Virus record (IMG/VR): IMGVR_UViG_3300027861_000023
Coordinates: 1-63,275 of that record
Strand: one strand, 5' to 3'
DNA: 63,275 nucleotides
Source of the DNA: a virus
Made by a program: the position numbers and the translations under genes. Positions within the stretch are counted from its first letter, which is position 1. Each line of letters begins with the position of its first letter. Below the pieces are notes generated by a model. That model saw only the letters and a program-made list of their open reading frames with translations, made no database searches and had not been told where the DNA came from. Positions 26,474 to 44,314 of the stretch are shown piece by piece.

Positions 26474-28060
26474 ATGAGCAATTATATTCCAAAGAACCTT
26501 GAGTTCGATCAAGAAGGTCGTAATAAATTAATCAAGGGTATCACAACAATTTCAAAAGCGGTAAAGAGTACACTTGGCCCTCGTGGCAAAACCTCTATAA
26601 TAGAGTCAACCGATCATGTTGGTGGTATGACTATTACAAAGGATGGTGTAACAGTTGCTAACTCTATATTCCTGGAGGATCCAGTAGAGAACCTTGCGGT
26701 TCAGATGTTAAAAGATGCTGCTCGAAGAACAGCTAATTCTGCTGGGGATGGAACGACAACTGCAATTGTATTGACTGAGGCTATTATAAAAGCAGGCGAA
26801 GAGTTTTTAACTCCTAAACATAATATAACTGAGGTTGTAAAAGATATAAATCGTTTAAGTATTCAGATTGTTGACAGTCTTTTACATAAGTCTAAAGAGG
26901 TAACACCATCCAGGCTTCTGGATGTTGCTACTATTTCGGCTAATAACGATCATGACCTGGGGAAGATTATAGCAGATGCTTACGATCAGGTTGGTAAGAA
27001 TGGTATTGTAACAGTTGAGAGGTCACAAAACCATATGACTTTTGCTACTGTAACAAATGGTATAAAGATAGATCGTGGATACACATCAAACCTGTTTATC
27101 ACAAACCAAAAAAATGATGAGGCCGTACTAGAAGATGTTCTTGTATTGGTATGTGACCAGGAGATAAGTAACATCCTTCAGATAGAGAATGTGCTGAGGC
27201 CAGTTATTCAACAAAACAAAAAACTATTGATTATTGGGCCAGTATCAACCAATGTTGTTCAAACATTAGCGTTAAATGTTGTGCAAAATGGATTGAAATT
27301 GTGTAATATTATGCCACCACAGTTTGGATACAAGCAACATGAGCTGATGCAAGACATTGCAATGTCGGTTGGTGCTAAATACTTTTCGGAAAAAACAGGA
27401 GACGATCTTAGTTTGATCACATTTAATGATTTAGGTCATGCGGATAAGGTTATATCTGGTAAAAGTCAGACAGTTATTATCAAAGATAGCCAGATGACAG
27501 AAGATATCGAGAAGAGAATAGAGGATCTAAAAGAACAACAAAGCAACACCGAGATAGTGTCAGACAGGGAGTTTATAGATGAGCGAATCGCTAGTTTATC
27601 TGGATCTATTGGAGCTATTTATGTTGGAGGTAACTCTGATGTGGAGCAAAAAGAGAAGTATGATAGGATTGAAGATGCGGTATGTGCAGTTAGATCAGCA
27701 CTTGAAGAAGGTATTGTCGCTGGAGGTGGAACAACACTATATAAAGTTGCAACTTACATAGAAGATAAGAACAATGGGGTTGCTGGAAAAATACTCGCGA
27801 GTGCGCTTCGCGCACCTTTGTTGCAAATTTATGCAAATGCTGGGTTAGATCTATCAAAATCAAAAAAGGAAAAGCTTATGTATGATTCTGGTTATGAGGG
27901 ATTAAATATAAAAACTGAAGAGTGGGGAGATATGTATAAAATGGGTGTTATTGATCCTTTAAAAGTTACTAAGTCCGCTTTTTTAAATGCAGTAAGTGTT
28001 GCAACAACAATACTTACAACTAATGTAATAATTACTCACGCAAGAGCTAAAGAAGCCTGA
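26474..28060 (+). CDS. groEL: Phage-encoded chaperonin GroEL
   Basis: This 528-residue protein is a near full-length group I chaperonin subunit. The equatorial ATP site is intact: TLGPRGKT (33-40), TKDGVTV (Asp57) and GDGTTTA (91-97). The catalytic-region motif GNSDVEQKEKYDRIEDA and the GGGTTLYK loop are present, so all three domains are there. The C-terminus ends in THARAKEA without the usual Gly-Gly-Met tail. GroEL rings fold proteins inside a closed cavity with GroES. A GroES-like gene follows directly. Folding of capsid or very large virion proteins is the likely use (inference). Divergent from host-type GroEL but not degenerate. Confidence 0.95.
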   Translation: MSNYIPKNLEFDQEGRNKLIKGITTISKAVKSTLGPRGKTSIIESTDHVGGMTITKDGVTVANSIFLEDPVENLAVQMLKDAARRTANSAGDGTTTAIVLTEAIIKAGEEFLTPKHNITEVVKDINRLSIQIVDSLLHKSKEVTPSRLLDVATISANNDHDLGKIIADAYDQVGKNGIVTVERSQNHMTFATVTNGIKIDRGYTSNLFITNQKNDEAVLEDVLVLVCDQEISNILQIENVLRPVIQQNKKLLIIGPVSTNVVQTLALNVVQNGLKLCNIMPPQFGYKQHELMQDIAMSVGAKYFSEKTGDDLSLITFNDLGHADKVISGKSQTVIIKDSQMTEDIEKRIEDLKEQQSNTEIVSDREFIDERIASLSGSIGAIYVGGNSDVEQKEKYDRIEDAVCAVRSALEEGIVAGGGTTLYKVATYIEDKNNGVAGKILASALRAPLLQIYANAGLDLSKSKKEKLMYDSGYEGLNIKTEEWGDMYKMGVIDPLKVTKSAFLNAVSVATTILTTNVIITHARAKEA

Positions 28061-28062
28061 TA

Positions 28063-28386
28063 ATGAGTATGATGAATACAACAAAAGATTGGAAGAAATT
28101 AGTATCCATGAAACCAAAAGAAAAAACTATGAAGCCAGTAGGTAAATATATTGTAATAAAAACAATAGAAGAAGAAATAAAAACCTCATCAGGAATATTA
28201 TTATCAGCTAGTGATGTTGATGGGTTTAGATATAAAAAAGGAAAGGTAATAAAACCTGGCACAGATGTTAACGTAATTAAAGAAGATGATCTTATTTATT
28301 ACGATAAAAATTCAGGAGTAACTTTAATTATAGAGGAAACACCACTTACTATTATTCAAGAAAGAGATGTAGTTATAGTTATATAA
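28063..28386 (+). CDS. groES: Co-chaperonin GroES-like protein
   Basis: This 107-residue protein starts 3 bases after the groEL stop. After a basic ~25-residue leader, the beta-barrel pattern of GroES is visible: KPVGKYIVIK, a mobile-loop-like EEEIKTSSGILL, KGKVIKPG, then LIYYDKNSG and a terminal DVVIVI strand. It should cap the phage GroEL ring. Gene order groEL-groES is the reverse of the usual bacterial operon. Sequence identity to bacterial GroES looks low, so the call rests on pattern and linkage. Confidence 0.8.
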   Translation: MSMMNTTKDWKKLVSMKPKEKTMKPVGKYIVIKTIEEEIKTSSGILLSASDVDGFRYKKGKVIKPGTDVNVIKEDDLIYYDKNSGVTLIIEETPLTIIQERDVVIVI

Positions 28387-40680: not shown

Positions 40681-41244
40681 ATGAAATCTCCTTATAGTTT
40701 TATTGTCAGTCCAAAAAAGGGCAGGCGATATGATAACATAAAAAAATACGGAAATAAAAATTTTATTACAAGCTCTTCTGAAGAAGATCATAGCTCTTCC
40801 AATCGTTTTGCAGTAGTTGTTTCTACTCCTATTAATTATAATGGCCCAATAAAAAAAGGTGACACTCTTTTAGTTCATCATAATGTTTTTAAGTTTTATA
40901 ATGATATGTATGGTAATAGAAAAAGCGGTAAAAGTTTTTTTAAAGACAATTTGTTTCTCGTAGATCCAGATCAATTTTATATGTATAAAAATAAAAGCGA
41001 ATGGATAGGTCATGACAAGTATTGTTTTATTAAGCCTTTAGAGTCAAAAGATGGCTATCTTAAAAAAAGTTCTAAATACGAACCATTAACTGGAACAGTA
41101 AAATATATAAATCAAGATCTTTTAGACAAAGGTGTAAAAGTTGGTGATGTGGTTTTGTATCAGCCTGATTCTGAATATGAATTTCTTGTTGATGACGAAT
41201 TGCTTTATAGAATGTTTACTGATAATATCACTGTTGTGTTATGA
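40681..41244 (+). CDS. Second GroES-like (co-chaperonin fold) protein, 187 aa
   Basis: The protein keeps the order of GroES strands: YSFIVSPKKG, NRFAVVVSTP, GPIKKGDTLLVHHN, then GTVKYINQ, GVKVGDVVLYQ and a final LYRMFTDNITVVL, which matches the end of GroES (VKVGD, then a C-terminal edge strand). An insertion of about 60 residues (71-140) separates the halves. It overlaps the 2OG-Fe(II) gene by 4 bases. It is unlike the groEL-linked GroES. It may be a dedicated co-chaperonin or a repurposed barrel. Fold assignment is by pattern, not alignment. Confidence 0.6.
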   Translation: MKSPYSFIVSPKKGRRYDNIKKYGNKNFITSSSEEDHSSSNRFAVVVSTPINYNGPIKKGDTLLVHHNVFKFYNDMYGNRKSGKSFFKDNLFLVDPDQFYMYKNKSEWIGHDKYCFIKPLESKDGYLKKSSKYEPLTGTVKYINQDLLDKGVKVGDVVLYQPDSEYEFLVDDELLYRMFTDNITVVL

Positions 41245-41813
41245 TATATCACAGAGATGGTTTTTTGGATTCAGAGTATTTTAATGAGATTAATAATTCT
41301 ATAAACAGTCAAGAATTTATTCCAGTAGACGTAGGTAATGCTTTTTTTTATGTTCAGCCTTCAAACAAAAAGTTTGATGATTATGTTATTAAAAAGTTAG
41401 AAAAAATAGAAGGTAAAAAATTATCAAACATAACATCTTTTTTTAGAGTAGCTACAGATCAGCTTGATGCTTCTTGGAGAATACATTCTGATTTAATTGT
41501 TAATGGTGAAAAACCAGATAGAGCGTTAGTTTTTTATCTTTCTCCTAAAAGAAGAACTGATTTGCATGGTACTGCTTTTTGGAATCATCATATTCATGGA
41601 GAAAAACTTTTTGATAATTGCACAAATGAAGAGTATGACACTATGATTAAATTAGATTCAAATGATTTAACTAAGTGGAAACTAAGACAAGTTGTTGATT
41701 ATAAGCCTAATAGATTAGTATCATACCCAGCAAATTATTTTCATAGTAAATACCCTAATGAGGGTTGGAAAGAAGGAAGAAAAGTTTTTGTAATGTTTTA
41801 TAAATTTAAATGA
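41241..41813 (+). CDS. 2-oxoglutarate/Fe(II)-dependent oxygenase-like protein
   Basis: 190 residues with the HxD...H...R pattern: H82-S-D84, then H168 (YFHSKYPNEGW) and R180 (GRKVFVMF). The spacing suits a minimal 2OG-Fe(II) dioxygenase. In phages these enzymes are common but their substrates are mostly unknown (protein prolyl/aspartyl or nucleobase hydroxylation are possibilities). Coupled to the GroES-like gene upstream and just before terminase. Confidence 0.8.
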   Translation: MIYHRDGFLDSEYFNEINNSINSQEFIPVDVGNAFFYVQPSNKKFDDYVIKKLEKIEGKKLSNITSFFRVATDQLDASWRIHSDLIVNGEKPDRALVFYLSPKRRTDLHGTAFWNHHIHGEKLFDNCTNEEYDTMIKLDSNDLTKWKLRQVVDYKPNRLVSYPANYFHSKYPNEGWKEGRKVFVMFYKFK

Positions 41814-41814
41814 A

Positions 41815-42090
41815 ATGGATGTAAAAAAAATTAAACTTCAAATTATAAAAGCTGGAGAAAAAGCTGTTCAACAATTAATAAAAGTTGCTGAAGAGCAAAT
41901 TATAAAGTATGGAGAAGATGATGAATTAGCAGCTGATAAATTAAAGAATGCTGCGGCAACTAAAAAATTAGCTATATTTGATGCTTTTGAAATACTAAAA
42001 AGAATTCAAGAAGAAAAAGACGAAATAGAAGGAGTGGATAATAAAACAAATAACGCGCCAAAAGGATTTGCTGAATCAAGATCAACATAA
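41815..42090 (+). CDS. Coiled-coil protein upstream of terminase, small terminase candidate (91 aa)
   Basis: Helical, Lys/Glu-rich (KIKLQIIKAGEKAVQQLIKVAE, then AADKLKNAAATKKLAIFDAFEILKRIQEEKDEIE). It lies directly upstream of and overlaps the large terminase gene, the usual place for a small subunit. No DNA-binding motif can be named, so the small-terminase role is inferred from position. Confidence 0.5.
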   Translation: MDVKKIKLQIIKAGEKAVQQLIKVAEEQIIKYGEDDELAADKLKNAAATKKLAIFDAFEILKRIQEEKDEIEGVDNKTNNAPKGFAESRST

Positions 42091-44314
42091 ATTATATATA
42101 AAAATTGTAGACTTAATTCCTAATAATGTTTTAGCTACTAAAAATAAAGCTAAATCTTGGAAATATGGGTTTAATGAAAAATACGATATTGTTGTTATTT
42201 CTAAGTCTGGAAAAATAGGAGATATTATTTCTATTCAAGGATTAAGAATAGCTCTACCTCTTTTAGAAAAAGATATTTATATAAAAAGTAAAGTTTCTTC
42301 TGAACAATACTGGAAGGCTCAAGAAATACCAAAAGCTTTAACTAAAATAAAATCTATATTTCAATGGCATAATACGTCTTCTAGCTTTAAAAATCAATGG
42401 GTTGATTATATAGAAAAACAGTTTGATTACAGGGAAAAAGGTTACTGGTTTAAAAACAATGGCGTTCCAACTTATATAACTGGTTCTCATTGGATGTATA
42501 TTCAGCACACAAAAATAGATGTAGGCCTTCCTGATTTTAGGGAAGCAAATAGAATATTTTTTATTCACTGGGAAGCTTGTAAAGCAGATAAAAGATCTTT
42601 CGGTAATGATTATTTAAAAATTAGAAGATCTGGTTTTTCTTATATGGGAAGTGAAGAATGCGCTAATATTGGAACAATAACTAAAGATGCTAGAATAGGT
42701 ATTCTTTCTAAAACTGGAGCTGATGCTAAAAAAATGTTTACCGATAAGGTAGTTCCTATATCTAATAATTATCCTTTTTTCTTTAAGCCTATACAAGATG
42801 GTATGGATAAGCCTAAAACAGAATTAGCATACAGAGTACCTGCTTCTAAGATTACTAAAAAAAATATGTATGAGGATGAGGTTGATGAGGTTGAGGGTTT
42901 AGATACAACGATTGACTGGAAAAACACAGGAGACAATAGTTATGATGGGGAAAAATTAAAATTGTTAATTCATGATGAAAGTGGAAAGTGGGAAAAACCT
43001 AATAGTATAATAAAAAACTGGGGGATTACTAAAACTTGTTTGCGTTTAGGTAGTAAAATTATTGGCAAATGCATGATGGGATCAACATCAAATGCTTTAG
43101 ATAAAGGAGGTGAAAACTTTAAAAAGCTTTACTATGATTCTGATGTTACTAAGCGTAATTCAAACGGTCAAACAAAAAGCGGATTATATAGTTTGTTTAT
43201 TCCTATGGAATTTAACATGGAGGGGTTTATTGATAGATATGGAATGCCTGTTTTTTACACTCCTGAAAAACCTATAATTGGAATAGATGGGGAAATGATT
43301 ACTCAAGGAGCTATTGATTATTGGCAAAACGAAGTAGATTCTTTGTCTAGTGATCCAGATGCGTTAAATGAATTCTACAGACAATTTCCTAGAACAGAAT
43401 CTCATGCTTTTAGAGATGAAAGTAAACAGTCTTTGTTTAATCTTACTAAAATATATCAGCAAATTGATTATAATGATTCTTTAATGATAAAGCAGCATAT
43501 GACTCAAGGTTCTTTTTCTTGGCATAATGGTGTTAAAGATACAAGGGTTATTTGGACTCCTGATAAAAGAGGAAGATTTTTTGTAACTTGGATACCTGAG
43601 AAATCATTAAGAAATCATGTTGTTATAAAAAACGGAAAAAAATATCCTGGGAACGAACACATTGGATCTTTTGGTTGTGATTCATATGATATTTCAGGTG
43701 TTGTTGTTGGTAAGGGATCTAACGGTTCTTTGCATGGTATGACTAAATTTAATATGGATACAGCTCCAAGCAATGAGTTTTTTTTAGAGTATATTGCTAG
43801 ACCGCAAACAGCAGAGATTTTTTTTGAAGAAGTTTTGATGGCTTGTATATTTTATGGTATGCCTATTTTATGTGAAAACAATAAACCAAGATTATTGTAT
43901 CATTTTAAAAATAGAGGTTATAGATCTTTTAGTATAAACAGACCAGACAAAACATTTAATAAGCTTTCTAAGACAGAAAGAGAGTTGGGTGGAATACCTA
44001 ATTCTAGTGAGGATGTAAAGCAGTCTCATGCTTCTGCTATAGAGTCTTATATAGAAAAACATATTGGTTTAGATTTAGTTGGAAATTATAGAGATCCTGA
44101 TGATATGGGAATAATGTATTTTCAAAAAACATTAGAGGATTGGGCAAAGTTTGATATAAATAATAGAACAAAATTTGATGCCTCTATTAGTTCAGGTTTA
44201 GCTATAATGGCTAATCAAAAACACCTATACACACCAGCTAAAGAAAAATCAAAAATAAGCATTAACTTTGCTAGATATAACAATAAAAATTCTATTAGTC
44301 AATTACTTAAATAA
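42068..44314 (+). CDS. terL: Terminase large subunit
   Basis: 748-residue packaging motor: an adenine/P-loop region with RRSGFSY (a deviant Walker A), Walker B-like LLIHDESGKW and a motif III GSTSN, then an RNase H-like nuclease with FGCDSYDISG (Asp), ILCENN (Glu) and SSEDVKQSHASAIE (Asp). It translocates DNA into the procapsid and cuts it. The best start is TTG (LNQDQHKLY...), overlapping the previous gene by 23 bases; the next in-frame ATG is far downstream. Headful packaging would suit the permuted ends, but this was not tested. Confidence 0.9.
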   Translation: MLNQDQHKLYIKIVDLIPNNVLATKNKAKSWKYGFNEKYDIVVISKSGKIGDIISIQGLRIALPLLEKDIYIKSKVSSEQYWKAQEIPKALTKIKSIFQWHNTSSSFKNQWVDYIEKQFDYREKGYWFKNNGVPTYITGSHWMYIQHTKIDVGLPDFREANRIFFIHWEACKADKRSFGNDYLKIRRSGFSYMGSEECANIGTITKDARIGILSKTGADAKKMFTDKVVPISNNYPFFFKPIQDGMDKPKTELAYRVPASKITKKNMYEDEVDEVEGLDTTIDWKNTGDNSYDGEKLKLLIHDESGKWEKPNSIIKNWGITKTCLRLGSKIIGKCMMGSTSNALDKGGENFKKLYYDSDVTKRNSNGQTKSGLYSLFIPMEFNMEGFIDRYGMPVFYTPEKPIIGIDGEMITQGAIDYWQNEVDSLSSDPDALNEFYRQFPRTESHAFRDESKQSLFNLTKIYQQIDYNDSLMIKQHMTQGSFSWHNGVKDTRVIWTPDKRGRFFVTWIPEKSLRNHVVIKNGKKYPGNEHIGSFGCDSYDISGVVVGKGSNGSLHGMTKFNMDTAPSNEFFLEYIARPQTAEIFFEEVLMACIFYGMPILCENNKPRLLYHFKNRGYRSFSINRPDKTFNKLSKTERELGGIPNSSEDVKQSHASAIESYIEKHIGLDLVGNYRDPDDMGIMYFQKTLEDWAKFDINNRTKFDASISSGLAIMANQKHLYTPAKEKSKISINFARYNNKNSISQLLK

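Follow-up and report, generated by a model that had tools for sequence, protein, structure and literature searches.

A long GroES-like co-chaperonin encoded near the terminase gene of a marine phage is predicted to consist of two tandem GroES-fold units

Why should a phage that encodes a GroEL together with a GroES carry a second, longer GroES-like protein near its terminase gene? This question is raised by the window analysed here, the whole stretch of 63,275 nucleotides of the virus record IMGVR_UViG_3300027861_000023. A first-pass annotation had described the protein in question as GroES-like, with the GroES strand order and a ~60-residue insertion.

The long GroES gene and its family

40681..41244, + strand: long GroES-like co-chaperonin of 187 aa, predicted to be tandem and two-unit (open reading frame, PHROG 13932, AF2, Foldseek)

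The open reading frame extends from an ATG start to a TGA stop and spans exactly positions 40681-41244. The profile PHROG 13932, 'co-chaperonin GroES', matches residues 1-183 (profile positions 1-195 of 200, E 1.8e-23), and thus the protein was rightly called GroES-like. The Pfam Cpn10 model gives a sub-threshold match to residues 127-184 of the window protein (E 0.0066) and scores above the cut-off on the C-half of the long GroES proteins of phi18:3, Calle and L089. One viral scan returned 384 end-to-end relatives, confirmed by tblastn, and a profile scan of viral contigs yielded at least 597 tblastn-confirmed candidates. Because hundreds of viral contigs conserve the sequence over its full length, the reading frame is a real gene and a chance occurrence is excluded. 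Identity to homologues of other genera is roughly 22-39%. The carriers are phages of Bacteroidota and form a large group; the phage of the window is marine.

The family as such is already known: in Elemovirus, Baltivirus and Callevirus its genes bear the annotation co-chaperonin GroES or cpn10. A 'chaperonin cpn10' is listed among the core proteins of the Pervagoviridae (PMC8776804), and the GroEL of the same phage group has been reported as well (PMC5332604). The window protein belongs to this family (PHROG 13932; RefSeq 'co-chaperonin GroES' of Elemovirus, Baltivirus, Callevirus and Maribacter phage Panino), whose members share a length of 180-200 aa, a position before the gene of the terminase large subunit (TerL) and a short GroES companion with or without GroEL. 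The window clade differs from these relatives by a trimmed loop in the C-terminal unit, a 91-aa gene before TerL and an occasional oxygenase insert. A two-domain build of the long GroES was not described in the literature searched, which covered few subscription journals.

When the Panino protein was used as query the scan returned no matches, and a phmmer search of the PDB with a single long GroES sequence gave only chance matches to LECT2. A chromosomal tandem homologue was not found: genome contigs gave only MAG contigs, probably of phage origin, and 399 genomes of one bacterial family contained a single full-length match, again the MAG that is probably phage.

Several further co-chaperonin genes were noticed in these searches. 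Two proteins annotated as hypothetical are recognisable by profile, namely a short GroES beside groEL in Panino (PP540027, 68137-68376) and a long GroES in MW202828 (31782-32345). Most Bacteroidota genomes searched (G049, G052, G061 and others) contain, besides the canonical GroES, a second divergent Cpn10 match in open reading frames of about 120-180 aa, some of them longer. Cellulophaga phage phi14:2 (L268, Crassvirales), which also encodes GroEL, has an unannotated protein of 129 aa two genes upstream of TerL (42267-42653); apparently it is this protein that gave a weak match to the GroES model in a viral structure library (E 0.013). Co-chaperonins may thus reach into the Crassvirales.

Predicted two-unit architecture

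40681..41010, + strand: N-terminal GroES-like unit, residues 1-110 (predicted fold of the unit alone)
41011..41241, + strand: C-terminal Cpn10 unit, residues 111-187 (hhalign, PDB GroES match, chromosomal GroES matches)

The structure of the whole protein was predicted by AF2 with a pLDDT of 83 and a pTM of 0.78 (32 homologues). In a Foldseek search of the PDB the top match of this model was 7ekq_R, which aligned over the full length (208 columns, E 3.6e-5, TM 0.56); according to the sequence table chain R of this entry is the Cpn20 co-chaperonin subunit, Chlamydomonas CPN20. Single GroES chains reached a TM of only about 0.30 against the whole model, and from this difference it appears that both units superpose on Cpn20 at once. 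The match to the gp31 structure 1g31 was weak (E 0.26).

For the C-terminal unit the relationship to Cpn10 can be followed in the sequence. It matched a profile of bacterial and phage Cpn10 with 97.4% probability in hhalign, the C-half of the family profile matched the PDB GroES 8wux (E 9e-4), and residues ~107-186 of the profile matched chromosomal GroES in more than 120 of the 399 genomes of the host family. On account of these concordant matches we regard the C-half as Cpn10 by descent.

The N-terminal unit is beyond such recognition: no significant Cpn10 sequence match was obtained for it, its profile retrieved no Cpn10 from the PDB, and hhalign gave probabilities of 2-30% against GroES, with at most 0.4% for column shuffles. 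When residues 1-110 were predicted alone (pLDDT 84.7, pTM 0.74, 53 homologues), ranks 1-11 of the Foldseek search of the PDB were all Cpn10/GroES chains, aligned over ~114 columns with a best E of 0.011. This modelled fold match to GroES is modest. A match of the N-unit profile to antifreeze repeats in the PDB was dismissed as the sum of weak repeats.

Since residues 1-110 alone give a GroES-like fold, the supposed ~60-residue insertion is better explained as part of a second barrel. A single GroES barrel with an insertion would agree with a length of about twice that of GroES and with the recognition of only the C-half by Pfam, but we consider it very improbable because the N-terminal residues are confidently predicted as a barrel of their own and the whole chain matches the two-domain Cpn20 end to end. 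The models therefore argue for two tandem GroES-fold units, residues 1-110 and 111-187, and the predicted structure is of the GroES type in both units, with no other fold appearing. Comparison of the N- and C-unit profiles gave no significant sign of an internal duplication (about 5% for the whole family, and one value of 37% over only 28 columns); the build could stem from either internal duplication or fusion.

Among known systems the chloroplast and apicoplast Cpn20 is the closest in layout, having two GroES folds head to tail in one chain and, like the long GroES, coexisting with a one-unit Cpn10 (PMC5780408). The identity to 7ekq_R is about 14%, the protein is of phage origin, and its N-unit cannot be recognised by sequence. 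As the lineage is that of Bacteroidota phages and not of plastids, we call the long GroES Cpn20-like and not a member of Cpn20; an origin of the phage two-unit cap independent of Cpn20 is likely. The GroES substitutes encoded by other phages, T4 gp31 and RB49 CocO, serve head assembly and differ in being single units of about 111 aa; a functional precedent is offered by gp31, which takes the place of GroES when the capsid protein is folded (PMC3012670). Bacterial GroES and the short GroES of the phages are likewise single units, homologous to the C-unit of the long GroES (97% in hhalign), and the phage short GroES has the canonical SGLLL mobile loop.

Candidate mobile loops and companion chaperonins

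40750..40794, + strand: candidate GroEL-binding mobile loop, residues 24-38, GNKNFITSSSEEDHS (low pLDDT, conserved hydrophobic pair)
41044..41085, + strand: shortened C-unit loop, residues 122-135 (GroES-type loops at this site in relatives)
26474..28060, + strand: phage GroEL, 528 aa (Pfam Cpn60, E 3.9e-57)
28063..28386, + strand: short canonical GroES (Pfam Cpn10, E 1.2e-10; conserved start probably the Met at 28129)

The segment modelled with the lowest confidence, residues 32-38 (pLDDT < 50), lies inside the candidate loop of the N-unit. It is preceded by a conserved hydrophobic pair, residue 28 being F or L in 97 and residue 29 I or V in 95 of 101 sequences, and the disordered segment following this pair is predicted to occupy the place of the GroEL-binding mobile loop of GroES. 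In Elemovirus the N-unit sequence SNGLILNVS aligns in register with GGIVLTGS of E. coli GroES. The loop of the window protein (K-N-F-I-T) is less hydrophobic than those of its relatives.

GroES-type loops are also found in the C-unit of relatives (PSLIYIPEDNKEK in phi18:3, GSIIVPNSG in L089). This loop is trimmed in the window clade and in Elemovirus, so that in the window only the N-unit loop is of full length. Mobile loops in both domains, a trait of Cpn20, are hence absent from the window protein and present in phi18:3 and L089.

The short GroES is a different protein, as had been assumed: a relation to it is detectable only in the C-half of the long GroES. Its relatives have the SGLLLS mobile loop in common, and their reading frames start at the second Met. 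They lack the 22-residue N-terminal extension encoded at 28063-28129, and in several of them stop codons interrupt this stretch; the true start is probably at 28129.

The phage GroEL is 38% identical to E. coli GroEL and retains D52, D87 and D398 of the ATP site and most of the apical hydrophobic residues including Y199, F204 and L237. All seven phage GroELs compared have Glu where E. coli GroEL has L234, a residue of the apical helix to which GroES and substrates bind.

The co-occurrence of two co-chaperonin-fold proteins in one phage proved to be the rule in this group. Among 38 related phage records, 14 of which had been picked solely for carrying the short GroES, the long GroES was present in 38 (including 14 of these 14), the short GroES in 36 and GroEL in 31. 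The records lacking GroEL are four complete Baltivirus isolates, two records of 54-55 kb that are possibly incomplete, and one Callevirus-like record of 72.8 kb. As the four complete Baltivirus genomes keep both the long and the short GroES, the presence of the two caps does not depend on a phage GroEL. The two caps, which may act at different stages, are encoded apart from each other; in Elemovirus the GroEL/short-GroES pair lies on the strand opposite to the long GroES gene.

Gene neighbourhood and proposed role

41241..41813, + strand: accessory oxygenase-like gene with an HxD...H pattern, DUF6445 (PF20043, E 3.4e-6)
41815..42090, + strand: conserved 91-aa gene between long GroES and TerL in the window clade (tblastn)
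42068..44314, + strand: terminase large subunit, TerL (PHROG 6681, E 4e-170)

TerL is located downstream of the long GroES in all 55 loci compared. The placement next to the terminase holds literally for Elemovirus and Callevirus, in which the long GroES abuts TerL with a 4-base overlap; in the window the oxygenase-like gene and the 91-aa gene intervene. The noted 4-base overlap with the former was confirmed, the stop codon being shared with the start of the 190-aa reading frame at 41241 (ATGA). A homologue of the window-type oxygenase follows in only 10 of the 55 loci, and about nine more have a different 2OG-type protein (assigned by pattern and checked with Pfam in two). In the remaining loci the slot is mostly empty or TerL follows directly, often with the same overlap. 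Set against the constancy of TerL, the 10 loci mark the oxygenase gene as an accessory insert, a passenger outside the conserved unit.

Between the long GroES and the 91-aa gene lies a hot spot, which is either empty or filled by the window-type DUF6445/2OG protein or by another protein of ~157 aa; the PF13640 match of this alternative 2OG-type protein is weak. The 91-aa gene was detected by tblastn in all loci of the window clade, always just upstream of TerL. Its product is probably helical and is a candidate for the small terminase subunit.

We consider it rather probable that the long GroES is a Cpn20-like cap which acts on the phage or host GroEL in the folding of late virion proteins. 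The N-unit loop would dock with its hydrophobic F-I-[T/V/L] segment on the apical domains of the heptameric GroEL. The folding cage would be closed by tandem barrels only, or by tandem barrels in alternation with the one-unit phage GroES. The partner may be the GroEL encoded by the phage itself or, for Baltivirus, that of the host. Clients could be the capsid and portal proteins or the very large tail or ejection proteins. From the position of the gene among head and packaging genes we infer late expression, and GroEL binding, ring make-up, stoichiometry and clients are likewise proposed by inference. GroEL of the related phage phi38:1 is made during infection, and it was seen both in infected cells and in preparations of virions (PMC13288928). 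Cpn20 and Cpn10 are known to act together in seven-domain rings (PMC5780408). A more specific version, that a two-barrel cap arisen independently of plastids mixes with the one-barrel GroES in rings of seven units, or forms a taller cap by stacking, for capsid-module proteins on phage or host GroEL, is possible and is put forward tentatively.

The constant neighbour of the long GroES is TerL and not GroEL, and the gene persists without a phage GroEL; therefore a role independent of GroEL has to be weighed. According to this main rival, which we judge unlikely, the double barrel has left GroEL to become a head-morphogenesis or packaging factor, its ring serving as a scaffold that helps to assemble TerL or the portal. 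The 55 conserved loci, the direct overlap with TerL in Elemovirus and Callevirus and the retention in Baltivirus agree with it, and there is a precedent in the capping of a non-GroEL ring, ClpP, by Cpn20-type rings (PMC8889267). However, the features of a GroEL-binding loop are conserved in the N-unit, and relatives in Baltivirus and Callevirus have GroES-type loops in both units. Moreover, Baltivirus retains a canonical short GroES that could be used only with the host GroEL, and the synteny with TerL is explicable by late co-expression alone.

It is very improbable that the long GroES forms a minor part of the virion structure. Its gene lies within the structural module and, as mentioned, GroEL was seen in virion preparations of phi38:1, but in phi18:3 virion MS/MS underlies the annotation of the portal and about ten further proteins, and that of the long GroES is by sequence similarity only. 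A functional partnership with the downstream 2OG-Fe(II)-type oxygenase, as the ATGA overlap had suggested, can practically be dismissed, since most loci have another 2OG-type protein, nothing or TerL in its place.

Returning to the proposed Cpn20-like cap, the fit of an even number of barrels to the seven-fold GroEL is still debated for the plastid caps. Two-unit co-chaperonins have been described as a peculiarity of plastids (PMC5780408). A phage family with the Cpn20 build that occurs in cultivable phages (phi38:1, phi18:3, elemo) would provide another, independent system in which to examine it. A chaperonin kit with two caps occurs in many marine Bacteroidota phages, and for some of these any use of GroEL must mean that both caps run on the host protein.
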